Positions 4,717-30,465 of a stretch of 64,000 nucleotides of DNA are shown piece after piece. Below the pieces are notes generated by a model. It saw nothing but the letters and a program-made list of their open reading frames with translations. It made no database searches and was not told the DNA's origin. Source of the DNA: an uncultured Christensenella sp. (lineage in GTDB: Bacteria > Bacillota > Clostridia > Christensenellales > UBA1242). Made by a program: the position numbers and the translations under genes. Position 1 is the first letter of the stretch. Every line of letters starts with the position of its first letter. The stretch spans positions 1 to 64,000 of the forward strand of contig CATKZB010000002.1 in NCBI GenBank assembly GCA_949841595.1, in the 5' to 3' direction.

Positions 4717-5215
4717 TTAAGATATTCTTTTCCATATATAGCAAATATAGGCATTAGGTTGAACAGTGGTAGAATTGCCATACAAATCACTACAAAGAGA
4801 TGCATCAAAATTTGCACCTTTGTGTTTAGTTGCTGAGTTGCCAGATGTTAAACCTTGTAGCCTGTGGTTTCCAGTTTCTGTTCCATAAGAGTAAAATGCA
4901 CCAGAAAAAGTCATATAAGGTCTACCAGTGTCAGAGCCATACAACTCAAAATGTCCATTGATATTTGGTAGACCTGCCTCTTTTGTGCCATTTGCCACAT
5001 ATTCGATTCCATTCAAACTTCCAGCACCATAAATCGCTCTACCTTGTGAAATGCGTTCCCACACGCCACCAAACAACTCTGCTGGTGAAGTATCACAAGA
5101 TAATAAACAAATAAATCCTACTGGAATAGCAAGAAGGGGTTTGCTGTTAAGCGTTACCCCCCCCGACTTTTAGATCATAAATATTGTTTTTCTTCGTTAT
5201 TTTAAACAACTTCAT
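4717..5215 (-). CDS. Receptor-binding tail tip D, phase-variable, out of frame as assembled
   Basis: Start ATG 5215 after AGGAGGGGTTAAT. The first 17 codons run into a G8 tract (5157-5164) and reach TAA six codons after the G run begins. With one G fewer (G7) the frame continues through residues resembling VGGVTLNSKPLLAIPVG, the shared SPAELFGGVWE motif and the C-terminal TVQPNAYICYIWKR motif, giving 165 residues, exactly the length of tip B. The tract is at the same codon position as in tips B and C. This points to an OFF state of a contingency gene rather than decay, because the rest of the frame is intact. Homologues with this motif form the receptor-binding tips of phage baseplates. Confidence 0.8.
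5157..5164 (-). repeat. G8 tract in tip D (OFF)
   Basis: Eight C on the plus strand, G8 on the coding strand: GTC-G8-TAACGC. Full-length reading needs a G count of 1 modulo 3 (7 or 10). G8 stops at TAA three codons after the tract, and G9 stops at once. Confidence 0.85.
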
Positions 5216-5216
5216 A

Positions 5217-5669
5217 TTAACCCCTCCTAATACATTCTGGAATAGAAGGTTTAATCAAGGTTTCAGTTATATCAAGCAGTTCTTGTCTAAATTGCTTAAC
5301 TTCAGTTTTTTCATCATCTGTAAGAGAATCATACCATGCTGCTCTGTCTATGATTTTAAAATAATCTTCTCTCCATGCACGAAGTTTATCTTTTTCAATT
5401 TCGAGCAGTTCTTCTTGAGTATAGAGAACATAAACTTGTATATCTTCATACTCGTCATGTTCTTCAATGGCAGGTCTACCTTGAATGTCAATAACTTTTT
5501 CTACATCCTTTCCACCATTTTCATATTCAGCGATTGTCCTATAGTGAAATTGCTCTTTTATCTCTTCTTGAGCCTCAATATGATGAACCAGTTGATCTGG
5601 CTTAAGATAACCCTTGTTTAAATCTGGATTATCAATAATTTGTGTTTTTTCTTGATTATAAATTTTCAT
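5217..5669 (-). CDS. Tail-fibre assembly chaperone-like protein
   Basis: 150 residues. The C-terminal part (about 95-150) has the pattern LRAWREDYFKIIDRAAWYDSL...VKQFRQELLDI. This resembles the phage tail assembly chaperone family (Phage_tail_APC), where a WR..R..L......W...L.....YR..LRD helix pair is typical. Residues 1-90 form an acidic N-terminal domain. It sits between tail tips C and D, one base before the tip D start, as fibre chaperones often do beside the fibres they fold. It has no G tract, so it is expressed whatever the state of the tips. Confidence 0.65.
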   Translation of the reverse strand: MKIYNQEKTQIIDNPDLNKGYLKPDQLVHHIEAQEEIKEQFHYRTIAEYENGGKDVEKVIDIQGRPAIEEHDEYEDIQVYVLYTQEELLEIEKDKLRAWREDYFKIIDRAAWYDSLTDDEKTEVKQFRQELLDITETLIKPSIPECIRRG

Positions 5670-5690
5670 AATATTCTCCTTTTTTGTTTT

Positions 5691-6154
5691 TTAAATTCTT
5701 TTCCAAATATTTACTGTTAGATAAGGTGGCATAGTAGGAACAGTAGCCGAATCAGTTGCGTCAAGTTGAATTGGACCAGATGAAGTTGTGGTCAATTTTA
5801 CATAAGCACCCTTTTCTGTTCGCACCTCAGCATTACTTCGATGTTGCTCACCTGCATACAATAAATTGTTGCCAAAGCCAAAATTTTGCCAGTGTGCATG
5901 AGAATGAGAAGAATTTCCACCCTCAGAGCCAAGTTTATAAGAATTACCGGCAGCCAATAAAAATTTATCCTTGATTTGCTCCCAAGTTCCACCAAACAAC
6001 TGAGCAGGGCTTGTGTTATTAACACTTATATACACTGAGCCTTTAGGGAAAACTCCCAGTGCATTTTCTGCGTCAATTAAACATTTATCTTCAAGGTAAA
6101 AATCCCCCCCCCGACAATCTTATATCCAGTTGCTGTTTTTATAATTTTAAACAT
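5691..6154 (-). CDS. Receptor-binding tail tip C, phase-variable, out of frame as assembled
   Basis: Start ATG 6154 (MFKIIKTATGYKIV). The earlier overlapping ATG hits TAA after two codons. The G9 tract at 6104-6112 throws the frame to a TAA about ten codons later. With G10 or G7 the frame joins a D-F-Y-L-E-D segment, the SPAQLFGGTWEQ motif, an SHSHAH metal-site-like motif and a C-terminal LTVNIWKRI, about 153-154 residues. HxH motifs like this coordinate metal in trimeric T4 gp12-type fibre tips. The body of the gene is intact, so this is an OFF allele. Its tip differs fully from B and D after the anchor, as expected for alternative receptor binders. Confidence 0.8.
6104..6112 (-). repeat. 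G9 tract in tip C (OFF)
   Basis: Nine C on the plus strand. The coding strand reads ATT-GTC-G9-ATTTTT. Full-length reading needs G7 or G10; G9 gives a truncated peptide of about 25 residues. It is the longest homopolymer of the six. Confidence 0.85.
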
Positions 6155-6173
6155 ACATTTTTCTCCTTTCAAT

Positions 6174-6671
6174 TTAATTTTCAATTCTTTCCCATGCAAA
6201 GATTTTTATTGATGGTGGTTGCACTGTGCTTGAGTTTCCATAAAGTGCATTTGACTTTGATGCATCAAATCCTAATGCCCATGATGTTCGACCTGTATTA
6301 CCTGTTACACCACCACTGCGTCTTTCTTTTACATCAAAAGCACCTTCAAACTCTTCTTCAAAATTCGTATCATTGTCAAACCATATTGTTGTAAAAGAAT
6401 CATTTGCAGTTCTACCTGTAATATTAGGTAACCCTGCTGATATTTTCTGCCCACCTTGTCCAGTTGTTTTTGTTGTCCAAAGTGCATAACCTTCATCAAG
6501 CAGCCTCCAACTCCCACCAAAGATTTGTGCAGGACTAATATCTTTAACCGAAATAAATATTGAACCTACAGGGAAAGATGCAAGAGGATTGCCATTAAGT
6601 GCTACCCCCCCCGACTTTTCTATGTTGTAAATATTCTTTGTTTTATCATATTTAATTTTAAACTTATCCAT
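6174..6671 (-). CDS. Receptor-binding tail tip B, phase-variable, in frame
   Basis: 165 residues from ATG 6671, chosen for AGGAGGGAAT directly upstream; a longer reading from 6698 has no ribosome site. N-terminal anchor (1-60) includes IEKSGGVALNGN, where the Gly pair is encoded by a G8 tract. Then comes the family motif ISPAQIFGGSW, a variable tip and the C-terminal STVQPPSIKIFAWERI. It aligns with tips A, C and D in the SP..LFGG.W and C-terminal motifs and equals the restored length of D. As assembled it is ON. Losing or gaining one G would stop it within a few codons of the tract. Confidence 0.85.
   Translation of the reverse strand: MDKFKIKYDKTKNIYNIEKSGGVALNGNPLASFPVGSIFISVKDISPAQIFGGSWRLLDEGYALWTTKTTGQGGQKISAGLPNITGRTANDSFTTIWFDNDTNFEEEFEGAFDVKERRSGGVTGNTGRTSWALGFDASKSNALYGNSSTVQPPSIKIFAWERIEN
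6605..6612 (-). repeat. G8 tract in tip B (ON)
   Basis: Coding strand AAG-TC-G8-TAGCAC, read TCG GGG GGG GTA. G7 gives TAG at once; G9 gives TAA two codons after the tract. Same position as in tips C and D. Confidence 0.85.
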
Positions 6672-6679
6672 ATTCCCTC

Positions 6680-7096
6680 CTATGCCACTCTTTTCCATGC
6701 GTAAACCTTATAGGCAGGTGGTTGGACTGTGCTAGATTCTCCATAGATATTGCTACTTTTTGAGGCATCAAGTTGAACATCATGAAGATACATTTTCCAT
6801 CCATTACCACCAGCAGACCCTTCTGATATTTGAGTTCCGAGCCATAATGAACCACTTGCCTCTGGATTATGGTCGAATGTTGTTCCTCCCCATAATCCAT
6901 GAACTCTCCCTTTAATATTAGGAAGTCTAGCAGCAATCGTGCCACCTGCACCACTTGTCGCTGTCCACAAGGCATAGCCTTCTGGTAATCTCTCCCATGT
7001 GCCTCCATAAAGACTTGAAGGGCTTATCTCGTTTTCAGTTATAAAAAAACTACCAATCGGATGGTAGTTGCTTGATTTTATTCTTACTTTTTTCAT
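6680..7096 (-). CDS. Receptor-binding tail tip A, constant
   Basis: 138 residues, with the same architecture as the three tips after it but a shorter N-terminal anchor and no G tract. Visible motifs are HPIGSFFIT near the start, ISPSSLYGGTWERLPEGYALW (family motif; quoted in part), a Gly-rich variable body and the C-terminal TVQPPAYKVYAWKR. It starts 11 bases after the BppU-like fibre gene ends. Being tract-free, it would be made in every phase state and could act as the default tip, or as a fixed structural part of a mixed tip. Confidence 0.8.
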   Translation of the reverse strand: MKKVRIKSSNYHPIGSFFITENEISPSSLYGGTWERLPEGYALWTATSGAGGTIAARLPNIKGRVHGLWGGTTFDHNPEASGSLWLGTQISEGSAGGNGWKMYLHDVQLDASKSSNIYGESSTVQPPAYKVYAWKRVA

Positions 7097-7107
7097 TTCT
7101 TCACCTC

Positions 7108-8799
7108 TTAATCTGGAAACTCAATCACAAAGGAAATTTCACCTGTTGAAGTGTCAGTTTCTGTGTAGCATTTACATGAACCTATTGGAACTGCACTGCT
7201 TGGTGAAACATTTCCACTTGAATCAGTTATCATAACTTTGTTTGCATTTCCTGCTCCTTGTGATTTGTCGACTTTTTTATTTAATTCATCGGTTGCAGCC
7301 TTTTGTGTCATTGCACCATCTGTGTTTTGACCTGTGCCAGTATACATAACGACACCTTCTGGAATGTTAGGCAATCCATCTAAGTCGCTATATTGGTTTG
7401 AAAAAGCAGCAGCACCAAGTGAACTTGCATCTGCTTTTTCATTGATTTTGCTTAGTAATGCACTAGACAATTTTGTTTCACCAATAACACCATTCTTAAT
7501 AACAGCACTAACCTTATTGTCAGAAGTAATTGATACTGTAATTTCAGTTCCATCTACACCAGTGTAGATGTTAATAAATGCACTCATTGAAATCTCTTGT
7601 GTTGTTCCATCTTCATGCTCTAAAATAAGTTTCTTTGTTGCTTGATCGTAATGAAAATTAACGACCACTTTTTCAAGAAGTGTGTCAAGAGTAAAACTTG
7701 TTCCATCATTCTTCACAAATGTAAAAATACCAGTTTGGCTATCCATAGATACTGACTTAATAGATGCTGCAACTTTTTCCTTCTGTTCAGTATTAAACAC
7801 CTCGTTAGTGGCATCCAGCGTTGTTTTATTGGCGTGTGCATGGCGTTTATTTACTGCATCTGATATATTTTCGTTAGATTGATTATAAGTGTCTAGCAAA
7901 GCCTTATTTGAGTGGTTGTGTCTATTTTCAGAGTTTGATGAAACCTCCTCTTTTAACACTTTTGCTTGTTTTGCAGATACTGGCTTATTTGGATCGTCAG
8001 TTACACAATCATCTACTATGTCTGTGTAATTGATTTTCTTGTCTAAAGCCTCTTTCTGTGCAGTGGAAACTGGCTTATCTTTATCTGAAGTATTATCAAC
8101 CTTTTCAAGACCAAGTTGTTGAGCAGTAACTTCATGTGGATTCTCTTTGTTGTCTAAGTGGTCTTTGAGTGCGTTCTTTTGACCTTCATTAAGTTCGTCA
8201 ATATATGCTTTCTGATCTTCGTATTCTTTGATAGGAAGAGTGCTTGGTTTCATTCCACCAACGCCATCTGCCACCAAAACAAGCCCTTCATTGCCAGAAA
8301 TCTTGTCGACCTTATTCTTTGTCAACTCATTCACTTTCGCTGCTGTAACATCGTGCTGTGCCATGACAACCCCTGCTGGATTAAACCCATTACCACTAAT
8401 ATATAGATTTAGCGTTGAACTTGGCAATAGACTTGAAAACTCATCATTTTCATTGAGTGTTCCATAAGCGAAGGTTATTTCCAAACTTCCATTTATCTTA
8501 CAAAACTCTTCTGGAAAATATCCACGATACAACTCATATTCAAAACCATCTATGCTAATAGTCTTTTCGTAAGGCAAGTTATATGTTTGACTTCCCCATA
8601 TTTTTTCGCCAAGAGTGTTTATTGTGTTTGCATAAATCTTTACAATAGATTTATCTGTTGAATTAACAGTCTTTGGCACTAAGCATTCAATATCGGTAAA
8701 CCTATAACTGTCTTTATTCAGTCTTAAGGGTATAGATACTGCTGTTAATGAGCCATAAGCAGTTAAAACAACTTTCACTTTGTTTTTCTCTTTAATCAT
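7108..8799 (-). CDS. BppU-like baseplate fibre protein
   Basis: 563 residues. Residues 1-125 resemble the BppU/DUF2479 N-terminal domain that docks lactococcal-type phage fibres on the baseplate. Then come a coiled linker with fibre repeats (ENPHEVTAQQLGLEKVDNTS, DKPVSTAQKEALDKK, and two HNHSNKALLD / HAHANKTTLD repeats), and a Gly/Ser-rich C-terminus. The repeat style is common in Firmicutes tail fibres. It precedes the four tail tips, so it is the likely stalk to which one of them attaches. Intact, ATG 8799 after AAAGGAGAGAAT. Confidence 0.8.
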   Translation of the reverse strand: MIKEKNKVKVVLTAYGSLTAVSIPLRLNKDSYRFTDIECLVPKTVNSTDKSIVKIYANTINTLGEKIWGSQTYNLPYEKTISIDGFEYELYRGYFPEEFCKINGSLEITFAYGTLNENDEFSSLLPSSTLNLYISGNGFNPAGVVMAQHDVTAAKVNELTKNKVDKISGNEGLVLVADGVGGMKPSTLPIKEYEDQKAYIDELNEGQKNALKDHLDNKENPHEVTAQQLGLEKVDNTSDKDKPVSTAQKEALDKKINYTDIVDDCVTDDPNKPVSAKQAKVLKEEVSSNSENRHNHSNKALLDTYNQSNENISDAVNKRHAHANKTTLDATNEVFNTEQKEKVAASIKSVSMDSQTGIFTFVKNDGTSFTLDTLLEKVVVNFHYDQATKKLILEHEDGTTQEISMSAFINIYTGVDGTEITVSITSDNKVSAVIKNGVIGETKLSSALLSKINEKADASSLGAAAFSNQYSDLDGLPNIPEGVVMYTGTGQNTDGAMTQKAATDELNKKVDKSQGAGNANKVMITDSSGNVSPSSAVPIGSCKCYTETDTSTGEISFVIEFPD

Positions 8800-8826
8800 T
8801 ATTCTCTCCTTTTAAAAAGTTTTATC

Positions 8827-8856
8827 AAAAAAGGCAAGTCTACCGACTCGCCTTAA
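8827..8856 (-). terminator. Terminator after the small membrane gene
   Basis: Minus strand AAGGCGAGTC-GGTA-GACTTGCCTT, 10 paired positions with one G-U, then TTTTTT. One of the strongest terminators in the prophage, placed between the small membrane gene and the BppU-like gene. Late read-through must occur for the fibres to be made. Confidence 0.8.
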
Positions 8857-8876
8857 TGATTATATTTTTATTTGAT

Positions 8877-9119
8877 TTATTTTTTTCTTTTGAGCGTAAG
8901 AACCAAAATCAAGATGTAAACGCCTACTATTATCACCAAAGAGACAACTGATATAACAATATAGGTTACCCATGCCTCAGGATTATAAAAAGCCATGTCA
9001 GGCAATCCGACACCTTTTTGATAACATTTTACAAGCAATGCCAAAATACTAGCATTGAGATAAACTAGAATTGCAAACAAAACAGTTTCGAATAAAACAA
9101 TTACACTTTTCTTTTTCAT
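8877..9119 (-). CDS. Small two-helix membrane protein, phage moron
   Basis: 80 residues from ATG 9119 (MKKKSVIVLFE), with hydrophobic segments at about 5-28 and 48-73 and a KRKK tail. A TTG-initiated longer frame to 9155 is possible, but that TTG is part of a consensus -35 box. The -10 box predicts transcription beginning within a base or two of the ATG, so the mRNA would be leaderless, and no ribosome site is seen. Own promoter, own terminator and position between tail genes are the hallmarks of a moron expressed in the lysogen. Exclusion of other phages is a common role for such proteins, but it is only inference here. Confidence 0.75.
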   Translation of the reverse strand: MKKKSVIVLFETVLFAILVYLNASILALLVKCYQKGVGLPDMAFYNPEAWVTYIVISVVSLVIIVGVYILILVLTLKRKK

Positions 9120-9126
9120 ATTTGCT

Positions 9127-9155
9127 ATTATAAATGTATTTACAAAAAATGTCAA
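9127..9155 (-). promoter_or_regulatory. Perfect consensus promoter for the moron
   Basis: TTGACA (9155-9150), exactly 17 bases, TATAAT (9132-9127): a full match to the SigA consensus. It lies at the end of the large tail gene, reading into the small membrane gene. Expected start of transcription is about 9120, adjacent to the ATG. Confidence 0.85.
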
Positions 9156-12100
9156 TTATTTCACCTTAAAATAAGAAGTATCCACATTTCCTAAATACCA
9201 GTCCTGTTTTTTTTCTTCTATTGACAAATCGCTTACATTTCTTGCTATAACAAAATATTTTGCACCACTATTAACATAATCGTTGACTTCATTGGTGCTA
9301 ATTATCGCAATAGAACTAATATTTTCCAAATTGACATTCTTTAAAGTTTTCTCAATATTGATTTTTATTCCTGCACAATTAGGTAACAACTCTTTATCAA
9401 TATCAAAAAGTTGTTCTGTGATTATTCTATTAGGAATGGTTTCATTGGAAATTTTATTTACTTCTTCATTTAGAAGTGCTAACTTCAGATTGTTTTTATT
9501 ATTTTGCCACATATAAGCAGACAATACAAACCTATCACTATCGCTAATAACTTGCAAGTTAAAATTAAAACTTAGCATTTCTCTATTGTCTTTTAGCAAT
9601 GCAATACCATGAGAATTAGGGACTATTATCTCTCCCTCTTTCTCGCTACTAAATAAGCACAATTTGTTTGTTATTGTATCTATTGGATTTAATGGTCTAT
9701 TATGAACTTGTTCTGGAGTCATTTCATAATCCTCAATTATACTAAAATCAAGCAAATCGGCTCTTCCATAAACATCTGGATAACGGAAAGGCTTTAATTG
9801 AGCATAAGCAGTATTTGTTTTATCATCATCTTTAACAGATAGAGAAGTTCCAACAACTTGGTCTCCAGCCGAGAAATTATCCTTCATCTTCCAAGAGAAT
9901 GTTAATGTATTTTGGATAGATAATGAACTTAAAGCAGTGCAAACTTCAACATTATAAGTTTCATTTCCTGCAATAGTCGATTTATCTATATCGTTTTTAA
10001 ATTTGGTAACTGCATATTTTGGATAATGATTTATATTACCTAACAATAAATTTGATATAAACTCCCATCCAGATTGTCTGATAAAAGAATTTGTTTTGTC
10101 TACTTCAATAGGCTTTGTGTCAACAACAATATATTCATCTAAGGATATATCTCTTTTAATCTGACTTTGTTCACTTATCTCATAAAATCTTGGCTCTGAT
10201 GGTATCCCAATTATTTGAGACAACCTATTAAAGTCTTTTGAAAATTCAACTTCACTTATTATATGATTGCTATAATAAGTGTTTTTTACTTTAGAGACAT
10301 AATATAGATTATCTCTAATTTTATAAAGTTCTCCACTTTGTTTTAATTTAAACAAACTCGTAACCCATTCAGTTACCTTATAAGTTGTATTACCTGTTCT
10401 AATCAATAATCCATAAGTATTATTTCCAAATTTTACACTATCAACAACTGTGTCTGTTTGATTGTTAAATTGGTTATGTTGTGGAACTCTATCATATTTA
10501 GAAGCCAATAAATATTTTCGTAAATCAGGTCTTGTTTGGTTTGTGCGAATAGAGTCTTTTGTTCTGTATACAACATGAAAGATAAAATCATTTATTTTTA
10601 AATCTTTCCATTTTGCAGGGTCAACACTAAATACTTTCCCTAAAATGCGTTTTACTGCATATTCTTGAACATTATCTCCTGTATTCACCGATGGTAGTTG
10701 ATAACTTAACCCTTGAATTTTATTCGTTCCCAAAGAATAATATAAAGCAAATCCCTTGTTTACACTATCATTAGCATTGATTGATAATATATTGTAAATA
10801 TTCTCTTCAAAAATAAACCCGTTAGGGTCTTCACCTCTAGTTCCTTTCCCCACTAAATTTCTTATATCATTACTTTCAATAAAAGGACAAGAAACATTTT
10901 TCACTTCTAAATCAACTAGTTCAATTATATTCATAGAAGTAATTATTTCGGCAACATCATTATAAACCAAATAATCACTGCTAGATGATTTAGGAGCAAC
11001 CCATTCATCAATTACACCCCCTAATTGAACCATGTTAGATACATAAGAAGAGCATGCATCAACATACTCTTCAATATTTTTGCTATTATAGATTGTTATT
11101 TTATTTCCTACATCTAAGTATTGAGTCGGGTCTCCAAGTTTTTTCCATGTAGTTACAAATCTATCATCTTTACCAAACCTAACTTTAGGAATTGCATGAA
11201 TATATTTACCTATATCTAATTGTAATTCCCACCAGTTTTTTTGATTGTAAAAATTTTCAACAATAATAGTATTTTGCAACTCTTGTTTATCTGCATCCTC
11301 TAAATAATATGCTTTTGGAGTCTCATCTATTGGAACTCCCTTTATTTTAAAATGATTCTGTGTGGTTAAAAAAGCCTTATTGTATAAGTTATAAGCATTT
11401 TCAGTAGGAGCATTTCTTAAATACAGGCTTTTATCTTCGCCTTTTAACACAGCATTAAATTGTATATTTGCACATGGATAATCCTGATTGGTATAATTAA
11501 CATTATTTTTACCAACATAGATACCAGTCAATGGCTCACCCCCTACACTTCCATCATATTTATAAGCAATAGGATTTGAACTATCATATCTATTTGATGT
11601 ATCATAACTTTCGTTGCCGTTTATAGTGAAATTGTGTAGAGATATGCTAACTGAATACTTACATCCAGCATGTATCTCAAATTCTATCCTTCTATTCTGA
11701 ATCTCACTATCAAACTGAGCAACTTGTTTAGAATAATTATACACTGATGGTCCTTGAAAGAGTGGTTTCCAGCCACTTGCAAAGACAACCCTTGAAGTTG
11801 CCTCACCTTTCTTTTGTTCTAGATTTCCCATCTCCCAGTTTTTAACCCAAACATTTTCAGTAGGACTAGCACTGCTTGGATTAACTTGCACTTTTTTAAT
11901 AATTTTCTTTTCATTGGTTGCAATGACTGTTTCTTCTACAATAACATCTACAGAACAATATCCTTGATGAGAAAAATTTTTACTATTTCGGTCTCCAGAT
12001 TTAATTTCAAGCATTGGCACTGGTAAAGAAACTGTTTTTACATTCGTTGTAGGGTCCACCTCTTGATTCAATAAAAAATCAGTCCATTCTGTTATGTTTG

Positions 12101-15860: not shown

Positions 15861-16454
15861 TTATCTAAAAATAACTTCATAGACAAATTGCTTGTCGCCC
15901 TTATCTCTAACATTGATAACAACATCATACTTCTCATCGCCAACTTGAACATTATTTTTGAAATAATGCCATTCTTTAACACCTTTATGTTGTTTTGTGT
16001 CTTTTCCCTTTTCAAGTTTACTATAATCATAACTTGAGTTCTTGATAAAACTTGGTAATTCTTTGATATTGTTTATTTTAAAAGTAAAACCTTTTTGCGT
16101 TGAATTACCTCTTGTATATACATTCTTTTTAGCAGAATATTTATCAAATGCAGCAAGAATTGTTCTATCGTTTATTTCCAATTCAATAGGTTGAAAACTT
16201 TCAATTAAATCAACCAATTCCTTGACTTTAATCTTTTTAACTTCATTTAGTGTTTTAACAAGTTTTACAACTTGTTCTTTTTTATTTCTACTTATTTCTT
16301 CTTCCCTGAGAGACTCTTCAAATGTTGGTTTCTCTTTGTTTGACTTTCCAACACCCATTTCTTCTAGTCTTTTATTTTCAGCAGGTGTTCCACCACCAGA
16401 ACTAAACTTGCCATCTTCATCTCTAGGATGCTTATTTTCTTCCCATTGAGCCAT
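15861..16454 (-). CDS. Nuclease-like C-terminal domain of a virion protein, separate frame as assembled
   Basis: 197 residues from ATG 16454. The start MAQWEENKHPRDEDGKF is the junction motif (W-E-HPRD-GKF) that often links phage head proteins to a C-terminal effector domain. Residues 130-197 (KGVKEWHYFKNNVQVGDEKY, VVINVRDKGDKQFVYEV) resemble the phage Barnase-EndoU-ColicinE5/D-RelE-like nuclease (PBECR) domains by memory. The G7 tract just upstream could act as a ribosome site (spacing 5). With G8 this frame fuses in phase to the preceding ORF. The nuclease call is moderate; no catalytic residue is assigned. Confidence 0.65.
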   Translation of the reverse strand: MAQWEENKHPRDEDGKFSSGGGTPAENKRLEEMGVGKSNKEKPTFEESLREEEISRNKKEQVVKLVKTLNEVKKIKVKELVDLIESFQPIELEINDRTILAAFDKYSAKKNVYTRGNSTQKGFTFKINNIKELPSFIKNSSYDYSKLEKGKDTKQHKGVKEWHYFKNNVQVGDEKYDVVINVRDKGDKQFVYEVIFR

Positions 16455-16870
16455 ATTACCCCCCCTAAAATCCTTTGTTCTGCCTTATCTGAAAAGACAT
16501 TACCACCACGAGAAAAAAGCCTTTGTGAAAGGCGTTCTTGATATTTCTCTTCACTTTGTCTTGCCCAGTCTGCTTTGCTCTTAAATCGCTCACCACTAGG
16601 CAACTCACCTAAAACATCTGTTCCTTGAATAAACTTAATGCCTATTCCCTTTTGAGATAGTCTTTGTGCTTCATTTTGAGCAACTTGTCCATCTCCACCA
16701 CTTGTTCGCATAATTGTAAACATAGTGTTGTATGTTATCGCACCACCATCTTTCAATCTTTTAGTTACTGGAGCAACTACTTGCTGACCTGTTCTGTAGT
16801 TGTTGTTACCAAAGTATTCATACATCTTCCCACTCGGATGATGTCCATAGCCACCAAGATAAAGCCTCAT
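16364..16870 (-). CDS. Virion-associated protein, 5' partner of the nuclease-like frame
   Basis: Start ATG 16870 after AAAGGAGATAGAC. About 135 residues precede the G7 tract: a Gly/Tyr-rich N-terminus (MRLYLGGYGHHPSG), a helical middle and a basic end. With G7 it reads 32 extra residues out of phase to 16364 (168 total). With G8 it runs straight on as a single protein with the downstream frame, about 333 residues. With G6 or G9 it stops at TAA directly after the tract. Position after the capsid gene suggests a minor head protein. Function otherwise unknown. Confidence 0.65.
   Translation of the reverse strand: MRLYLGGYGHHPSGKMYEYFGNNNYRTGQQVVAPVTKRLKDGGAITYNTMFTIMRTSGGDGQVAQNEAQRLSQKGIGIKFIQGTDVLGELPSGERFKSKADWARQSEEKYQERLSQRLFSRGGNVFSDKAEQRILGGVIWLNGKKISILEMKMASLVLVVEHLLKIKD
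16459..16465 (-). repeat. G7 tract at the virion-nuclease junction (unfused)
   Basis: Coding strand ATT-TTA-G7-TAATATGG. G count 2 modulo 3 (8) gives fusion of the two frames; 1 modulo 3 (7, as here) gives an extended upstream protein and a separately started downstream frame; 0 modulo 3 gives immediate TAA. The tract also lies where a Shine-Dalgarno would be for the downstream ATG. Confidence 0.75.
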
Positions 16871-22981: not shown

Positions 22982-23000
22982 CTTTTTTTTGCTTGTAAAA

Positions 23001-23435
23001 TTAAGATTTTTTATAAAATGTGCCTGATTTTAGTCTGTCTTTAACACCACGAATATACCCCTTCAAGAAGGATTGTTCTGTCGGAAGTTGCTGATCTATT
23101 TTGTCAAGTATTCTAACAACTCTTTTTGTCTCGACCACAAGCCCAGATTGTAAATATACTTTAATAAAACCATCTATACTTATTTTTCCTGTTATGGTCG
23201 AAGAATTTAGTCGTAACATGTTTATTTCTTTATTTTTTTCTTTGAGCAATTTTCTGTAATAATCTCGTTCTAAAAGCAAATTTACAGTAAACTTAAATAA
23301 TTGTTGTTCATTCTCAATCTTAAAACCATCAATTTTTTTGGGATAAGTTACCTTTTCCACAACCCCAAACTTTTCAAGTTCTTTCACATCCATATCTTTT
23401 TCAAATTCTTTCAAATCAATTTCATTTTTAAGCAT
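23001..23435 (-). CDS. Unknown early phage protein
   Basis: 144 residues from ATG 23435, chosen for AAAGGAGATAAGA; an upstream reading is out of context. Charged, with a coiled-coil-prone middle (LLLERDYYRKLLKEKNKEIN). Last gene of the early block. In this position a late-gene regulator or antiterminator is common, but no DNA-binding motif is seen. Confidence 0.6.
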   Translation of the reverse strand: MLKNEIDLKEFEKDMDVKELEKFGVVEKVTYPKKIDGFKIENEQQLFKFTVNLLLERDYYRKLLKEKNKEINMLRLNSSTITGKISIDGFIKVYLQSGLVVETKRVVRILDKIDQQLPTEQSFLKGYIRGVKDRLKSGTFYKKS

Positions 23436-23823
23436 TCTTATCTCCTTTCTCGATTTGGTATAAAAATTTGACTGGAACTTTATAATAGTCATCTTCCAAA
23501 ATAGCACCACCACACCAACAATTCATTCTAATCTTCTCGCAAACTTGCTTGGTGTTGGTTTTAAGTTTATTATCAATAAGTTCTTTAAGACAATCATCAA
23601 AGTCGTCATAACAATTTGCATCTACTTGTCTACACATATCATCTATTGCATCTTGCATAAACTTTTCACTTATTTTATAGTTTTTGATTTCTTCATCTTT
23701 TTCTTTGAGTTGTTGCTTATAATCCCTTTCTCTATCAAGACACCCTTTGATTTCTTTCTCGATATGTTTATAAGCACAATATCCTTGCCATTCCTTTTCT
23801 GATAAAGTCCTTTCCTTACTCAT
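23428..23823 (-). CDS. Unknown early phage protein, coiled coil and cysteines
   Basis: 131 residues. A helical middle (about 20-55, RERDYKQQLKEKDEEIKNYK) is followed by Cys residues at CRQVDANC, DDCLKEL and NCWCGG. Overlaps both neighbours by 8 bases. Not recognised. Confidence 0.6.
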   Translation of the reverse strand: MSKERTLSEKEWQGYCAYKHIEKEIKGCLDRERDYKQQLKEKDEEIKNYKISEKFMQDAIDDMCRQVDANCYDDFDDCLKELIDNKLKTNTKQVCEKIRMNCWCGGAILEDDYYKVPVKFLYQIEKGDKNA

Positions 23824-24127
23824 TCTTCCCTCTTAGTTCTTCAATTCGCTGATTGATATAATGTGCTAAATATGTCCTACCATCCACAAAGTTTTTCACT
23901 ATTTTTAGTTCGTCTATCGCCCTTTGGTTTTGCACTGATTTAATTGTTTTGAGTGGACAAGTAGAATGTCTTTGTTCAGATATATTTTCATCACTATCAC
24001 CTACTTCTTTCCATGACAACAAACAATAACATGGATACTGTTCGCAATCAACACCATAAAACAGGCAATCATAGCAATTCTCTGGCAACTCACTCACACA
24101 AACTTGAATTTCTTCTTTATCGGTCAT
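23816..24127 (-). CDS. Unknown early phage protein, Cys-rich
   Basis: 103 residues from ATG 24127 with AGGAGGACAACA upstream. Cysteines at ENCYDCLFYGVDC and YPCYCLL, then HSTCPL: a likely metal-binding module of a type found in small phage proteins. Function unknown. Confidence 0.6.
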   Translation of the reverse strand: MTDKEEIQVCVSELPENCYDCLFYGVDCEQYPCYCLLSWKEVGDSDENISEQRHSTCPLKTIKSVQNQRAIDELKIVKNFVDGRTYLAHYINQRIEELRGKNE

Positions 24128-24137
24128 TGTTGTCCTC

Positions 24138-24386
24138 CTAATTAAAAGCACTGCCTCTATGCTCTAGGTTAGAACATAGAATAACTTTTTTTAGTTCTAT
24201 AAACTCTTCTAAAATCTCTTTGGCTCCTTGTATTTGTGGATATTCATTCTTCTTTAACATCTGCTCCAGATCATATAACGAATAGTTTCCTTTTTTGAAC
24301 TTAAGAGAGTCAATATAAAGAGTGTTATAAAATTCATTTAAGTTCTGTTCATCATTGTCAAAAATAATGTCTGGCTTATACTCCAT
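24138..24386 (-). CDS. Small acidic early phage protein
   Basis: 82 residues from ATG 24386 (GGAG five bases upstream); an alternative ATG at 24398 has no good ribosome site. Acidic with a helical C-terminus. It overlaps the preceding gene. No motif. Confidence 0.5.
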   Translation of the reverse strand: MEYKPDIIFDNDEQNLNEFYNTLYIDSLKFKKGNYSLYDLEQMLKKNEYPQIQGAKEILEEFIELKKVILCSNLEHRGSAFN

Positions 24387-24672
24387 TTTTCGCTCCATAC
24401 TCTTTGATTAGATGCTGAATATAAGTCTGGAAAGCATCATAATGAAAATAATCATCTTGTCCACACACTGTCGCATATTTACTCACATTCTCTAATGCCT
24501 TAACTACATTCGCATTTTCGTCAATAATCTTCACACTCGCAGGAAAATCTTGCGATCTACAACTCTCTTGCATTGACTCAAGTATTTCCTTCATATACTC
24601 TTCTTTGTTTTGTTCTATCTCTTGTTCAAGTTCTTCTGGAAAGTCTATTGTCATTTCGATTTGAATTTTCAT
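24376..24672 (-). CDS. Small acidic early phage protein
   Basis: 98 residues, acidic N-terminal half (EELEQEIEQNKEEYMKEIL) and a single CG pair. It overlaps neighbours by 4 to 11 bases, which supports it being real. Not recognised. Confidence 0.55.
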   Translation of the reverse strand: MKIQIEMTIDFPEELEQEIEQNKEEYMKEILESMQESCRSQDFPASVKIIDENANVVKALENVSKYATVCGQDDYFHYDAFQTYIQHLIKEYGAKNGV

Positions 24673-25181
24673 TTTTTAGTTTCCTCCTGTGCTTTTCTAT
24701 AATAATTTTGTGCCTCTTCATTTGCTGCTTTTCCCAACTCTTTCCGAGACACTTCCATGTAGTCAGACTGAATGACTTGAAGTGCATCGCTACAAGCCAT
24801 TTCACACGCTTTTTTCCATGTGTTCATGCCTTTATGATAAACTTCTTTATCTATCTTTAAAGACCTAAGTGCATCATCAATATCACACACTCTTACGAGA
24901 CCATGTTTGAACAGGATTTCTCTGATAGAAATTATCTCTTCTATTTCAAAACCAAATATTGTTTTAGGAACTATTGCAGGATTTATAATAGGTCGAAATT
25001 CTTTTTTTCTTTTTAGTTCAAGATCAAGCATATTTTCAAAATAGTCGCATTGATTACAAAGTTTGTTTATTAACAATCTCTGGTCTTTTCTTAATGCACC
25101 CCATTTCCCATACTCTGTTCCTCCATCAAGTTGTGGACATCTAATGTATTCTCTAATTTTGTCTGTCAATTTTTTAGCCAT
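24669..25181 (-). CDS. Unknown early phage protein
   Basis: 170 residues, helical, with a GGTEYGKWGALRKDQRLL N-terminal motif and Cys at CPQ, CNQCDYF. Overlaps neighbours on both sides by 4 to 8 bases. The domain is not one I can name. Confidence 0.55.
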   Translation of the reverse strand: MAKKLTDKIREYIRCPQLDGGTEYGKWGALRKDQRLLINKLCNQCDYFENMLDLELKRKKEFRPIINPAIVPKTIFGFEIEEIISIREILFKHGLVRVCDIDDALRSLKIDKEVYHKGMNTWKKACEMACSDALQVIQSDYMEVSRKELGKAANEEAQNYYRKAQEETKK

Positions 25182-25392
25182 TATTTGCCTCCTTGTTTTT
25201 AAGTCTAATTTCTATCTTCACATTTGTTATTTTGAAATTCTTAGAATGCACTTTAATCTTTTTTGCAACTGCCTTTGCTACCTCATGACTTGAATATTTA
25301 GCAGGTGGATTTGAATAGCAAATCATTAAGCCATTGTTTGATTCTTCCCATTCAACATAAATAGACGAAATTATCCTTTTCCTCAATTTCAT
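25174..25392 (-). CDS. Small basic early phage protein
   Basis: 72 residues from ATG 25392, coupled to the previous stop through ATGA, with GGAGGAATT upstream. Basic, beta-alpha-like (HSKNFKITNVKIEIRLKNK). Could bind nucleic acid. Unknown. Confidence 0.6.
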   Translation of the reverse strand: MKLRKRIISSIYVEWEESNNGLMICYSNPPAKYSSHEVAKAVAKKIKVHSKNFKITNVKIEIRLKNKEANNG

Positions 25393-26057
25393 AATTCCTC
25401 CACATAGCACCAAGATTGTGGAGGTTGTTTCATTGGTCTAAAGATATAATAACAAGCCATACAAACAGTGTGTTCTTTGTTGAAAGTATCGCATTTATCA
25501 CAAGGCAAGCCTTTTTCATGTTTCTCACATTTGTTGTTTGGAATCAAATAAGAAAACTCGCTCAACTCTTTCGGCTCATCGTAGATTTTTAAGTCGCTAA
25601 TGTGCAGAGCAAAGGCATCTTTGCTGTCTCCAATATAATCAACTATCTCTTCCATTGATAAACAACTATCTTTTAGACACTTGTCAAGTGCATCCCTATC
25701 CTTGAAATTCCAAGTATCAAATCTTCCTTCCTGATGATACACTAGCATATCAACCTCTTTAAGAATGAACTCTGCCACAACTTTGCCATTGATTGCATCT
25801 TCATCATACTTTGCCATATAATAATCAATCAAATCATAATTAAATTGACAATGTTCATTGTATCTTCTGTCTATCAAATAAGGCTGTCCTTTCGTGCAGT
25901 AAATCAAGCACTTCATTGATTCTGGTTTAACCTTTGTTTTTCCACTCAAATAGTCCTTCCATTCTTTCGGACAGGTCTTGCGAATTTCCAAAACCTTATC
26001 TTTGTTAAGAATGTTCATTGTGTGTTGTGGCTTAATTGAATACATTATTTTTCGCAT
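25389..26057 (-). CDS. ASCH/PUA-like domain phage protein
   Basis: 222 residues. The opening MYSIKPQHTMNILNKDKVLE (residues 5-24) followed by IRK is the ASCH pattern (SIKP....IL.G.K..EiRK) seen in RNA-binding PUA-superfamily proteins common in Firmicutes phages. The C-terminal part carries a Cys/His cluster (CEKHEKGLPCDKCDTF, CMACYYIF) consistent with a zinc site. Role in phage growth is not known; an RNA-linked regulatory role is possible. Confidence 0.65.
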   Translation of the reverse strand: MRKIMYSIKPQHTMNILNKDKVLEIRKTCPKEWKDYLSGKTKVKPESMKCLIYCTKGQPYLIDRRYNEHCQFNYDLIDYYMAKYDEDAINGKVVAEFILKEVDMLVYHQEGRFDTWNFKDRDALDKCLKDSCLSMEEIVDYIGDSKDAFALHISDLKIYDEPKELSEFSYLIPNNKCEKHEKGLPCDKCDTFNKEHTVCMACYYIFRPMKQPPQSWCYVEEL

Positions 26058-26269
26058 ACTTCACCACCAATCTTCTCAAGTTTCTTTAAGCATCTAGAAC
26101 AAGTCACTTGTTCACCTTCTTCAAAACTCCAACTGCCTAACCTTCCATGTGTAGTTCCACAAAGTGCAATACCATTTTTCTTTACTGCATGAAATATTGT
26201 TCCTGCTCCTCCTTCATTACCATTTGCAAGTCTACCAGTTTTTCTCAAAATTTTGTAGTCTTTATTCAT
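26045..26269 (-). CDS. Small protein with CxxC pair
   Basis: 74 residues. A glycine-rich N-terminal stretch (GGAGTIFHAVK) and VTCSRCLKKL near the end. One C-x2-C pair suggests a zinc knuckle. Overlaps the next gene. Function unknown. Confidence 0.55.
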   Translation of the reverse strand: MNKDYKILRKTGRLANGNEGGAGTIFHAVKKNGIALCGTTHGRLGSWSFEEGEQVTCSRCLKKLEKIGGEVCEK

Positions 26270-26283
26270 ACACTCTCCTTAAA

Positions 26284-26928
26284 CTATTCATTAAAATATT
26301 TGTAGGCTAAAGAAACATAGTTTCGCTCCATATAAAAATCATATAGAAACTCTTTTTGTTTCTTTGTAAGCCTTTTGCCTTCAAGAATTGTCGGATAAGG
26401 TATACCTTGACTTGCACTGTGAATTAAAATAAAGTTTTTGTATTTTGATAGATAATCAGCATCTGTAAGTCTTTCTTCACTTTGCTGCATTTTCCACGCT
26501 TCACTTGTCCAACCTTTTTCATCAAGAATCTCTGTTGCTTTTGTTTGATGAGTTCCCCATTCACTTGGATAAAATTCTCCATCTGGACTTAACCAACCAT
26601 AATCATCATATTTTAATTTAATTTTGACTTTTGGAGATTGCTTAACTTCTTGTTGCTTTAACCTATCTATCTCAAGATCTATTTGTTTCTTCATTTCAGC
26701 GTAATCACTAGAGTCAAGTCGTTTGCCATCTTTCTCAAAAAACAACATATCCCAGTCTCCCCAAACCTGTCTTTTTGGCTCTAAATCAAAATAGTCATTA
26801 AATGCCTTCAAATCATCGCTTGTTACACTTCCCATACCAAACCAAGTCATTTGTATAAAATTACAATTCTTCAGTTTGTCAAATACTCTACACAGACTAT
26901 CGTATAAATTCATTGATAATTTTGTCAT
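26284..26928 (-). CDS. Unknown early phage protein
   Basis: 214 residues, soluble, aromatic-rich: GDWDMLFFEKDGK (about 56-68), then a mixed region containing YGWLSPDGEFYPSEWGTHQ. Located downstream of the C5-type methyltransferase. Could be an accessory of the DNA modification module or unrelated. Not recognised. Confidence 0.55.
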   Translation of the reverse strand: MTKLSMNLYDSLCRVFDKLKNCNFIQMTWFGMGSVTSDDLKAFNDYFDLEPKRQVWGDWDMLFFEKDGKRLDSSDYAEMKKQIDLEIDRLKQQEVKQSPKVKIKLKYDDYGWLSPDGEFYPSEWGTHQTKATEILDEKGWTSEAWKMQQSEERLTDADYLSKYKNFILIHSASQGIPYPTILEGKRLTKKQKEFLYDFYMERNYVSLAYKYFNE

Positions 26929-26941
26929 AACACTTTCTCCT

Positions 26942-27640
26942 TTAAATTTTGTTTTTTAAAAATCTTTCATAGAAATTTTGAGCATATAGAGAACTTGTTT
27001 CACTTCTCTCTTTACAACCATGTGCATCGTTATAAATACTTTTGATTCCACAATGCTGTGTGAACATGATAAAATCCTCTTTCATTTCAAAATTTATTGC
27101 AAAGAAATTTGTTGGTTTCTTGAAGTTATCTCCAAACAAACTTCTATCTTTTTCGTGCCAAGCAACTTCAATAGGCGAAAACTGAACAAGATAGTTTTTG
27201 TTCCCACTACTTGCTGGATTTTCAATGATGGTAGGTATTCCTTTAACTTTGCAAATATAAGTAAACTTCAGATATAATTCAAAATATCTTGCTCGATCTT
27301 TGTTGCGTTCAAGAAGTCTTTTGACTGCTTTTTCATCATAGTCAATTTTCTTTCCACCAATCCAAAGTCTATATTGAAGTTCATTGGCATCACAAAAATG
27401 TGTGCAAGGAAAGAAAGCAATAATAAAATCATTTTCTTTCCTCATTTCTGAGAAGATAGTCTTTCTACCCCCCCCGAGAACTATATTGTCATATTCTTGG
27501 TCTATTTGTTCAAACAAGTCAATGACAAAATCGGTTTCGCCATAATCATTCAAAATGTCATAATCAAATGCATCATGTCCATGTGATTTCAAAACATTTT
27601 TAAATGTTCCACTTTGCTCAAACATAAGGTGGAATTTCAT
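26942..27640 (-). CDS. DNA cytosine-C5 methyltransferase-like protein, phase-variable, in frame
   Basis: 232 residues. SAM-site-like start (MFEQSGTFKN), an acidic GETDFVIDLF strand, a PC motif FFPCTHF near 77-83 (the PCQ-type catalytic motif IV of C5 methyltransferases, here PCT), and ENPASSG for the ENV-type motif VI. This divergent short C5-like family is frequent in phages. The G8 tract (27468-27475) encodes GGG between motif I and the PC motif; G8 is in frame, so the enzyme is ON. It has no target-recognition domain that I can identify. It lies 3' of the PAPS-reductase-like gene. Confidence 0.65.
   Translation of the reverse strand: MKFHLMFEQSGTFKNVLKSHGHDAFDYDILNDYGETDFVIDLFEQIDQEYDNIVLGGGRKTIFSEMRKENDFIIAFFPCTHFCDANELQYRLWIGGKKIDYDEKAVKRLLERNKDRARYFELYLKFTYICKVKGIPTIIENPASSGNKNYLVQFSPIEVAWHEKDRSLFGDNFKKPTNFFAINFEMKEDFIMFTQHCGIKSIYNDAHGCKERSETSSLYAQNFYERFLKNKI
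27468..27475 (-). repeat. G8 tract in the C5-type methyltransferase (ON)
   Basis: Coding strand GTT-CTC-G8-TAGAAAG, read CTC GGG GGG GGT AGA. G9 gives TAG directly; G7 gives GTA and a shifted frame. It sits at about residue 57, before the catalytic PC motif, so slippage would abolish activity. Confidence 0.8.
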
Positions 27641-28377
27641 TTTGTATCCCCTCCTTGTTTAAAGCGTTCTTCCAAATCAGTAAGTGTCATGTTTGGTTTA
27701 AAAGTGTTATGGCTATCTTTTTCCATTTCTTTAAGCACTTGCCACAACTCTGGATGATTTGTATAAAGCCATTTTAATTGTTTAAGACTTTGCTTTGGAC
27801 AAAACCAACAACCACCACGAAAACTGCTTTTATAAATTGGACTTAACAGATTGTGTTGCTTGCAAATCTCCATTGCCTCAAGTTCAGTGATGTCAAGATC
27901 AGCAAGAGTAACATATTTGTGATTTTCAGTTTCAAGTTTTTTATAACGCTGCAATCTTTTTGGCTCATCTTTGGCAATGCCAATATACTCAGTTACTGAT
28001 TCGCCACTTTTCAAAATCTGCTTGATATACTTGTTCATTGGCTCTAATTTAAGCCTAGAATTACACCATGCACCGACAACATAAGGAAAGCCATAGTTGT
28101 CTCCGATGTGATTACCCTTTCGCTTTACTCTATAAAAATGGCTCTTGAAAGTCCATCTTGATGAAATGCGTTTAACTGTTATGTTAAACTTATCTTTAAG
28201 TATTTTTTCAGCCTGTGGAATCCATGCTGCCATTTCTGGCGTTTCTCCACTTAAAGATTTTTCATTAAATCGAATATCACAATAAACAACTTCATCTAGT
28301 GGTAAGCCAAGTTCCAGAATTTTCAATAGCATTGCTAGGCTGTCCTTTCCAAATGAGCAACTTGCTATATATTTCAT
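27637..28377 (-). CDS. PAPS-reductase-like / PP-loop protein
   Basis: 246 residues. A PP-loop SFGKDSLAM at residues 8-16 and an adenylate-binding half (VYCDIRFN, RISSRW) are followed by a C-terminal CWFCPKQ motif. Phages use this family beside methyltransferases; relatives act in DNA sulfur modification (DndC-like) or tRNA/nucleotide sulfur chemistry. Substrate unknown here. It overlaps the C5-methyltransferase start by 4 bases, so the two are translated together. Confidence 0.75.
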   Translation of the reverse strand: MKYIASCSFGKDSLAMLLKILELGLPLDEVVYCDIRFNEKSLSGETPEMAAWIPQAEKILKDKFNITVKRISSRWTFKSHFYRVKRKGNHIGDNYGFPYVVGAWCNSRLKLEPMNKYIKQILKSGESVTEYIGIAKDEPKRLQRYKKLETENHKYVTLADLDITELEAMEICKQHNLLSPIYKSSFRGGCWFCPKQSLKQLKWLYTNHPELWQVLKEMEKDSHNTFKPNMTLTDLEERFKQGGDTK

Positions 28378-28386
28378 TGCTCACCT

Positions 28387-29619
28387 CTAAAAGCCAAAGA
28401 CATATTTCTTGATATTTTCTTCGCCAACGAACTTAATTGCATCTAACAATACTTCCTTGCTATTTGCAAATATAGTTCCTTGAATAACGCAAGACTGCAA
28501 CCAGTCAACAACAATTTCACCTTGAGTCTCATCAAAATACATGAAATACCTTTGTCCTTCGATTGCTTCTTCTGTGTCGTTTTCTTCAACATACTTCCTA
28601 ATTTGATTTGTAAACTTCAAGCAATTTTTTTGTCTTTCAGCCTCTTTTTGATTTTTGAAGAAGTTAAACATATCAAGTCTTTTAGCATTCTTCTTATTTT
28701 CCTTTGTGTTCAAGCAATTTCTGATTTGCCCTGTGCTTTGAATGAAATAATATCTTTCATCCTTTTGTGGTATTGTAATAAAAGTTTTTTCGTTATCCAT
28801 AACATTCTCCTTTTCACTTTGGATATAGATTTTTTTAAGTTTATATCTGAAGTAGCCACCTTTATCGTCTACTTTAATTACTCTTGTTTTGCCATCTTCA
28901 AATACAACAGTTCCATTACCAACATCAACTGTATAAGAAGGTGGTGCAGATAAAATAAATTTTTCAAGTTTGTCTTGATATTTAAAAATAAGGACAATAT
29001 CAAAGACACAAACATTGAAAAGAACAAACCAGTCTACAAGACTTAATTCGCTCCAGTTTATGAATCCACTTCCTAAAAAGCAGATCGTTGCAACTCCCAC
29101 TGTTCTAAAAATTGCAACAATGATTGCAAAATACCAATAACGCATTTTCGTCATTCCAGCGACCATGCACAAAGCATCATCTGGAAATACCGGAAATAGA
29201 AACATCAATGGCAATAGCATTTTTGATTTCATATCTAGCAAGTTTTGTGCTTTCTCAAGGCTTTTCTTTCCGACCAGTTTTTCGATTGTTTTCTCCCCCA
29301 ATGTGTTCCCAATAAGAAACATAAGAGAAGATGCAAGAAAGACTGAAATTGTGCTTATTATAAAGCCATATAAAGCACCAAAGAGAATTATTGAAACTGC
29401 AATAAAAGTTGCAGAAGTTGCTGGTATCATACACAAGAGTGTTGAACAGGTTGTAAACAGTAATATAAATACCACCCAACCCCAAGTGCCACACTTTGCA
29501 ATAATTTCTCTTAACCCTTCAATGTCGGTTACTCCCAATGCTCTCAATGTAAAATAAATACCAACACTTAAAGCAGTCAACACTAAAATTAAAATTAAAA
29601 TTTTAATCCACTTTTTCAT
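28387..29619 (-). CDS. VTT (DedA/TVP38-type) membrane protein fused to a soluble domain
   Basis: 410 residues. Residues 5-225 contain about five to six hydrophobic segments with the SNARE-assoc/VTT arrangement (...FPVFPDDALCMVAGM... near 145-160 matches the conserved F-P..PD. loop). Residues 270-410 are a soluble domain beginning YYFIQSTGQI, a type seen in phage and ICE proteins. An internal in-frame ATG at 28800 has AAAAGGAG upstream, so the soluble part (137 residues) may also be made alone. A VTT protein in a phage genome is unusual. VTT proteins move lipids between leaflets; its use to a phage is unknown. Confidence 0.7.
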   Translation of the reverse strand: MKKWIKILILILVLTALSVGIYFTLRALGVTDIEGLREIIAKCGTWGWVVFILLFTTCSTLLCMIPATSATFIAVSIILFGALYGFIISTISVFLASSLMFLIGNTLGEKTIEKLVGKKSLEKAQNLLDMKSKMLLPLMFLFPVFPDDALCMVAGMTKMRYWYFAIIVAIFRTVGVATICFLGSGFINWSELSLVDWFVLFNVCVFDIVLIFKYQDKLEKFILSAPPSYTVDVGNGTVVFEDGKTRVIKVDDKGGYFRYKLKKIYIQSEKENVMDNEKTFITIPQKDERYYFIQSTGQIRNCLNTKENKKNAKRLDMFNFFKNQKEAERQKNCLKFTNQIRKYVEENDTEEAIEGQRYFMYFDETQGEIVVDWLQSCVIQGTIFANSKEVLLDAIKFVGEENIKKYVFGF

Positions 29620-29638
29620 GATTTTTCCTTTTTAGTTT

Positions 29639-30465
29639 TTAGAATAGAAATAAACTTAACTGTCCATTTGAATCTACTTTATTTAATCTATCGTTGCTCA
29701 CTCCAACCCACTTAGTTTCAATATCCCAACCTAGAAATTGCCGATCAATATCTTTTGCTGCAACACAAGTTGTTCCACTACCAACAAAAGCATCAAATAC
29801 AATGTCTTTTGGCTGTGTTGCATGTAACAAGTGTTTTTTCACCAATTCCATTGGTTTGCAAGTTGGATGGACAAATTTAGATTTATCTTTTACATTTGCA
29901 GGACTAACAAAGTATTTCGTTTTATATTCGTAACCATCGTTGAGTTTTACCCCCCCTCACGAAAATACAAACAATACTCTATGTCTGGTAGCCAACTATT
30001 GTTTGTTGATGGAGTAGGATTTGTTTTACACCAACATAGAATCTCAAAATAGCAATTATGTTTGTCAATAAAGAATTTCATAATATCAAGAATTTGCAAT
30101 TTGCTACACCAAATAAAAATGTTGATTTTCTTCATAACTCGAACAAAATCGTCAAGAATGGCATAATCAATTCCATCTTCTATTGAAGTAACATCAAGTG
30201 AAGTTTTTTTTATGTTTTTTGCAATTCTTAAAGCCTCGCCACGACTTGAACATTTATGAGTTTCATAAACATCTGCCATTCCCATAAGTTCAAGCCTTTT
30301 CTTCGCTGTTCTTTCCCCTAATGCACTACTTCCACTGCCACCTTGATTGTAAAGATATGGAATATCTGTATATATACAGTCAATACATTTGTCTGGAAGT
30401 TCTTTTATTGCTTTGTAACTATCTTCACAATAAACTGCATTTAGATCCCACCTAGCCAATTTCAT
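29639..30465 (-). CDS. N6/N4-type DNA methyltransferase, phase-variable, out of frame as assembled
   Basis: Start ATG 30465 (MKLARWDLNAVYCED), coupled to the previous gene through TAATG and GGAAGGTGC. Part one has motif IV-like YTDIPYLYNQ (DPPY position). Part two (29639-29946) has HPTCKPMELVKKHLL, motif I-like DAFVGSGTTCVAA and LGWDIE. The two parts are separated by a G7 tract: G7 reads GAG GGG GGG TAA and stops; G8 gives FREGGVKLNDGYEYKTKY and restores one frame of about 275 residues. Order IV before I is the beta class. Intact on both sides of the tract, so it is an OFF allele, not a pseudogene. It probably modifies adenine N6 or cytosine N4. Confidence 0.8.
29949..29955 (-). repeat. G7 tract in the N6/N4-type methyltransferase (OFF)
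   Basis: Coding strand CGT-GA-G7-TAAAAC. Full-length reading needs a G count of 2 modulo 3 (8). G7 gives TAA directly after the tract, G9 gives stop a few codons later. The tract falls in the conserved YFRE-G region between catalytic halves. Confidence 0.8.

Follow-up and report, generated by a model that had tools for sequence, protein, structure and literature searches.

Poly-G tracts as probable on/off switches of tail-tip and DNA methyltransferase genes in a likely Clostridia prophage

Here, we describe long poly-G tracts in a likely prophage carried by an uncultured Christensenella sp. The window analyzed is the whole stretch of 64,000 nucleotides (contig CATKZB010000002.1, assembly GCA_949841595.1), of which the prophage occupies positions 793–35721, with provisional ends and no strand assigned. 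We find that five of its six long G runs lie in three predicted tail-tip genes and two DNA methyltransferase genes, where they probably act as slipped-strand on/off switches. This reading is built on direct observations: the tracts themselves, their mixed frame states, the open frames downstream of them, near-identical whole homologues, and natural differences in tract length among other phages. Phage-borne switching of tips and methyltransferases had been proposed in an initial annotation of this DNA, and the proposal gains support from the frame states, from the whole homologues, and from the viral contigs L217 and L241 to L244.

Six C runs of at least seven bases occur on the forward strand of the window: C8, C9, C8, C7, C8, and C7, at 5157–5164, 6104–6112, 6605–6612, 16459–16465, 27468–27475, and 29950–29956. 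The window otherwise has no C run of exactly six, and its forward-strand G runs never exceed five. All six lie within the prophage (~35 kb) and place G on the coding strand of its genes, as the initial annotation had stated; run count and positions agree, apart from the sixth run, which had been placed one base off, at 29949. The further statement that such runs occur nowhere else holds for the window but not for the genome: another 28 lie outside the prophage, and 12 of these are promoter tracts.

These run lengths are not expected by chance, as had also been suggested. We trained Markov models of order 1, 2, and 3 on bases 741–35262, with long runs shortened beforehand, and ran 200 simulations of each. 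The mean number of G/C runs of at least seven was 0.34, 0.13, and 0.40, respectively, and six runs were reached in 0 of 200 simulations at each order. The whole genome (1,129,304 bases in 16 contigs) has 34 G/C runs of at least seven (6 G7, 17 G8, and 11 G9) and 5 of exactly six, a two-humped distribution that would not be expected from neutral run growth. Runs are also about sevenfold denser in the prophage (6 in 34.5 kb) than in the remaining genome (28 in 1,095 kb; Poisson P = 3e-4). Five of the six prophage runs are placed where their length decides the reading frame, the exception being the run at 16459. As assembled, two of these five coding tracts are in frame (6605 and 27468) and three are out of frame (5157, 6104, and 29950).

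Three of the coding tracts lie in a row of tail-tip genes on the reverse strand. In tail-tip gene 1 (4717–5215; weak Gp10_C match, E = 0.0018, below the curated cut-off; phrog_6921, tail fiber), the start frame ends 2 codons past the G8 tract at 5157, while the tip frame stays open for 145 codons in another phase. Tail-tip gene 2 (5691–6154; Gp10_C, E = 1.2e-7, over the cut-off; phrog_6465, tail protein) is likewise split between frames, its start frame ending 8 codons past the G9 tract at 6104 and its tip frame being open for 136 codons in another phase. Tail-tip gene 3 (6174–6671; 165 amino acids; P0001; Gp10_C just under the cut-off) is whole, with an open frame that spans the G8 tract at 6605 and continues for 142 codons beyond it. 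Tail-tip gene 4 (6680–7096; Gp10_C, 28.7 bits, over the cut-off) is a constant tip with neither an N-terminal anchor nor a tract. A tail-fiber or assembly-chaperone-like gene in the interval between tips 1 and 2 (5217–5669; phrog_8716 and phrog_4912) also has no tract.

Gp10_C matches are found in all four tips at E = 0.0018 or better, and exceed the curated cut-off in two of the four. In PDB, the tip-family profile also finds T4 gp10 and an L-shaped tail fiber of a phage. The tips are therefore likely to be receptor-binding ends. Their tracts lie 14 to 20 codons from the start in three diverged paralogous tips, behind a short anchor. A search for whole homologues of split tips, which covered tip 1 only, recovered P0121, a whole tip with 22 member sequences that is 92% identical to the tip-1 piece and reads VGGGV at the tract. 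Glycines matching the tract recur in other tip homologues, as KSGGV in P0002 and P0004. A further tip-1 homologue, P0003, starts just past the tract position and by inspection has a C-terminal half in common with tip 3, which suggests sequence exchange between tips.

Among the six same-genus genomes with Gp10_C tips, tip tracts are present in two: the window's own genome and G125. The G125 tract is a G8 within the LFGG motif of one tip, at a different site in the same family. G125 also carries a row of tail-tip-like genes (collar-like and Gp10_C, by inspection) in G125:C3:42000-61500 (L215 13652-17681).

The other two coding tracts lie in DNA methyltransferase genes, again on the reverse strand. 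Methyltransferase 1 (26942–27640; 232 amino acids) is whole, with its G8 tract at 27468 in frame. It matches phrog_757 (E = 4.9e-16), has no Pfam or NCBIfam match, and is 36% identical to the DNA methyltransferase of Bacteroides phage B40-8. Methyltransferase 2 (29639–30465; N6/N4 type, PF01555) has its halves in different frames: the N-terminal frame, whose first ATG is at 30465, closes at the G7 tract at 29950, and the C-terminal frame is open for 102 codons in another phase. PF01555 matches the C-terminal half (E = 4.9e-14) and phrog_67 matches both halves. A whole homologue of 275 amino acids, P0123, is 96% identical to the methyltransferase-2 piece and reads REGGVKLN. In the stretches that were read no linked restriction gene was noticed, although no search was aimed at one.

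With three of the five coding tracts out of frame, and two related prophages that have no runs, the broken genes could be decaying pseudogenes in which the runs are chance sites of neutral frameshifts. This is very unlikely, since the frames downstream of the tracts are free of further stops over 145, 136, and 102 codons, whole homologues exist at 92% and 96% identity, and the genome has 34 long runs but 5 of exactly six.

Evidence that such tracts change length comes from closer and more distant viral contigs. A terminase search of IMG/VR returned four contigs with terminases 73 to 85% identical to that of the window prophage. The closest, L217 (85%), encodes methyltransferase 1 (phrog_757 confirmed) with a G7 out of frame at the very site where the window has a G8 in frame; thus tract length differs at the same site, in diverged flanks. 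L218 and L219 have a G9 and a G8, respectively, both in C5 cytosine methylases (PF00145), and the fourth relative is a 7-kb fragment without a run. No relative came up when IMG/VR was searched with the baseplate protein, P0002, methyltransferase 1, or P0123.

A pattern for the L219 site retrieved six contigs. One is that of L219 itself (L240), and another, L245, has diverged and carries its G9 in frame. The remaining four, L241, L242, L243, and L244, have tracts of G10, G9, G9, and G8 between identical flanks (300 bp before and 600 bp after), which leaves the gene in frame in two of them. Where in frame, it encodes a C5 cytosine methylase (PF00145, E = 5.5e-39), and the tract falls right where the match begins, in what we take to be motif I of the enzyme. 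The alignment of L241 with L244 covers 9,456 positions and shows 8 differences (a two-base tract gap, one substitution inside, and five near the end), so that the tract gap is the only indel in 9.4 kb. Four A runs, one T run, and a second G7 in the same block are unchanged in length; this G7 is in frame in an N6/N4 methyltransferase gene (PF01555; L241, reverse complement, 5058; L244, 1159). L243 and L244 have 2 differences in 6,333 positions, one of them in the tract, and L242 has 19 further positions that differ from L241, all in its first 450 bases.

The length polymorphism with intact flanks that the initial annotation had wanted to see in relatives is present in L241 to L244; in L217, tract length differs at the same site as in the window, but the flanks have diverged. 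The genes in common with the window prophage are few and of low identity: a DnaC-like gene in L241, L242, and L244 (29 to 30%), the C-terminus of methyltransferase 2 in L241 and L244 (36%), and an IS481-like transposase in L241 (56%). Judged by these genes, L241 to L244 are thus functional rather than close kin.

Some phages use G-rich slippery sites. The runs could accordingly be fixed in the DNA, with ribosomal or transcriptional slippage joining the frames and yielding two products in a constant ratio, and three of the genes are indeed split exactly at the run. However, the length difference is present in the DNA, both among near-identical phage contigs and when the window is compared with L217; two of the tracts are in frame without any slippage; and the promoter tracts of the same genome would be left unexplained. 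We therefore regard slippage as unlikely. The runs are likely to be random switches because other phages that are near-identical to one another differ in run length.

The G7 run at 16459–16465 (reverse strand) does not share this character. The initial annotation had the G count selecting the frame at all six runs, which holds for five but probably fails here. The run sits at the stop/ribosome-binding junction of a head-region gene (16364–16870) and the next gene (15861–16454; LPD3). In the relatives G128 and G129, this junction has no run and the genes on either side of it are separate; their first gene ends in "..QRLLGGRA" or "..QRILEG" and the second begins a few bases on. G077 and G053 match both proteins in adjacent or overlapping stretches, again without a run. 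As assembled, the first frame continues for 30 codons beyond the run. Fusion of the two genes was considered and rejected, given their separation in G128 and G129. Most likely, the run is a G-rich ribosome-binding site between two genes, where no frame would be switched.

Poly-G tracts are not specific to the prophage. As read, the 34 runs of the genome comprise the 6 of the prophage, 12 promoter tracts, and 16 other host tracts. The promoter tracts are C7 to C9 on the gene strand between TTGACA-like and TATAAT-like boxes, one −35 box matching at 4 of 6 positions. The spacer is 16 in nine of the 12 and 17, 19, and 13 in one each, with the −10 box picked by best match and ties going to the spacer nearest 17. 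These nine keep the spacer of 16 despite C runs of 7 to 9 bases with differing borders. The promoter-tract loci outside the window are L012, L013, L015, L022 to L026, L031, L039, and L041. They precede genes that resemble lipoproteins, a NUDIX protein, and others.

As read, the 16 other host tracts are in frame in eight cases, split in five, and unclear in three. Ten of them were scanned, and NUDIX (2), serine hydrolase (2), short-chain dehydrogenase, acyltransferase, GNAT, and glycosyltransferase families are among those found. Two similar NUDIX-like genes, at C6:33935 and C7:22158, carry a tract in the coding start of one and in the promoter of the other; they are likely to be paralogues with different tract solutions.

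The promoter pattern recurs in 50 of 101 same-genus genomes, with 0 for a reversed-pattern control. Across the order, it is found in 23 of 396 genomes (9 of 21 in the genus and 14 of 375 outside it). In an all-species scan (at least 113 stretches), 14 of the 80 matches listed are from Mucispirillum, which is far from Clostridia (L066, L067, L072, L073, L075, L080, L085, L092, L096, L112, L113, L115, L118, and L134).

A genome in 16 contigs, and the error-prone nature of homopolymers, might point to sequencing or assembly error. Yet rpoB, rpoC, and a gene of 3,430 amino acids (all named by inspection) are unbroken in a window that has 51 A/T runs of at least seven against 6 G/C runs. Moreover, L217 and L241 to L244 bear different IMG sample numbers, length changes only at the long G run in the aligned L241/L244 block, and promoter tracts keep their spacer of 16 in nine of 12 cases. 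We thus consider the probability of such error to be very small indeed.

Several observations weigh against tract-based switching in this prophage. In the IMG/VR terminase relatives, the tracts lie in methyltransferases, with a single one in each of three records out of the four, and none is in a tip. IMG/VR viral contigs searched with a tip-motif pattern gave 34 matches, none with a tip tract, and a scan with the tip N-terminal pattern gave zero matches. Four of the six same-genus genomes with Gp10_C tips (G095, G053, G086, and G087) have no tip tract, nor does G059, which was found by the tip query alone. The related prophages G077 (terminase 81% identical) and G053 (76%) have no run of at least seven in the stretches read. 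Ordinary codons at the tract position, which the initial annotation had named as evidence against its own proposal, are found in part: nine methyltransferase-2 homologues, all at most 90% identical (P0124 to P0129, P0141, P0149, and P0203), read REKGV, with a single glycine and no extra glycine of the run, and the tract stretch is missing from three relatives of methyltransferase 1 in Bacteroides phages. Two glycines are kept only in the nearest methyltransferase-2 homologue, P0123. The tract is therefore recent and derived, not ancestral.

Further points on the same side concern the tracts in general. The run at 16459 does not fit a frame switch, and the tract lengths of the window are a single snapshot of one lysogen assembly. 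Slippage in the polymerase chain reaction before assembly could add length differences at G9 to G10. Some other genomes of the order are likewise rich in runs of G7 or more; the counts, uncorrected for base composition, are 0 to 35 in 24 same-genus relatives and up to 88 outside the genus. Loss of mismatch repair as the cause of the tracts was weighed among these points and rejected: MutS and MutL domains are present in the genome, which is therefore no hypermutator lacking mismatch repair.

If the five tracts are switches, each would turn a tip or a methyltransferase on or off independently, by slipped-strand changes of length in the lysogen or in virions. Different tip sets and methylation states would then coexist within a phage population. 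The initial annotation had called this a coordinated system, which our results do not bear out because the tracts would switch independently, and no coupling is evident. Tip switching may alter the surface receptors that are bound; host lipoproteins and surface-modifying enzymes bear the same kind of tract. Methyltransferase switching may help against host restriction. The prophage would use a mode of switching also found at many other genes and promoters of its host. A broader proposal is that this is a temperate Clostridia phage with a small phasome (three switchable tips, one fixed tip, and two switchable methyltransferases) in a host with ~28 switchable genes or promoters, that the two mirror each other in random switching, and that poly-G switching of methyltransferases is recurrent in such phages. 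We hold this wider picture to be evenly balanced between true and false.

Switching of receptor proteins by poly-G has been reported before, in Campylobacter phages. The phase-variable receptor-binding proteins of the Fletchervirus group (Sorensen et al. 2021, Cell Rep 35:109214) are described in PMC11868660 and PMC8540345, and the same study is cited in PMC10877375 and PMC8696038. Fletchervirus phages resemble the window prophage in having phage-borne poly-G in several receptor-binding genes per phage and a poly-G-rich host. In contrast, the element described here is a likely temperate prophage of probable Clostridia lineage, has tandem Gp10_C tips beside one constant tip, and bears tracts in DNA methyltransferases as well; its receptor binding is predicted. 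Searches of 50,697 phage records with the terminase, methyltransferase 1, and methyltransferase 2 returned no Campylobacter phage in the organism tallies and nothing at or above 60% identity, which would place the prophage outside the Fletchervirus lineage.

Contingency loci of Campylobacter, Helicobacter, and Neisseria include examples of poly-C in promoter spacers. The host resembles these phasomes in combining coding poly-G with promoter-spacer poly-C at lipoprotein, glycosyltransferase, acyltransferase, and other genes, whereas it belongs to a genus of small genomes, in which the members that have names are Clostridia metagenome-assembled genomes. Such phasomes are treated by PhasomeIt (PMC6321876). 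Poly-G in bacterial methyltransferases is also known: PMC12003011 describes phase-variable type III methyltransferase genes of Helicobacter with G tracts. The likeness is that a poly-G run decides whether the frame is whole; the genes described here differ in being carried by a phage. Among the titles and abstract openings of the literature matches listed, a set that most subscription papers fall outside, none names a poly-G tract in a methyltransferase of a phage or in a prophage from Clostridia, and none names a poly-C-promoter phasome in a Clostridia genus of this kind.

If correct, our reading would take poly-G phase variation in phages beyond a Campylobacter group, to temperate phages in a Clostridia lineage, and beyond receptor proteins, to the DNA methyltransferases of phages. 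An uncultured lineage with the same kind of tract in host and prophage would make matched bet-hedging testable in existing metagenome reads. Any single assembled phage genome would then capture one state out of many, and tail or methyltransferase genes that look frame-broken in viromes may be off rather than dead.

The prophage lies next to the end of rpoC and is bracketed by a 15-nt direct repeat (793–807 and 35707–35721), likely its end pair and a candidate attachment site. Its left flank is short because the contig, of 143 kb, starts at base 1 of the window. Portal, major head, and tail proteins were matched among its genes, as was a PBSX-type terminase, under its curated cut-off. An IS481-like transposase (1038–2105) lies just within the likely prophage end and could be the integration enzyme. 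Homologues 56 to 60% identical to it are found at the end of phage record G129 (L226 14341-15051) and at the end of the L241 stretch (reverse complement, 1–756).

Two further genes lie in the phage early region. One (27637–28377) has weak DndC or PAPS-reductase-type matches and overlaps methyltransferase 1. The other (28387–29619) encodes a membrane protein with a VTT domain, the sole Pfam match among ten prophage proteins scanned. Outside the prophage, the gene of 3,430 amino acids (43337–53629) is a predicted lipoprotein gene that adjoins rpoB and is followed by a VirB4-like ATPase, these names being given by inspection.

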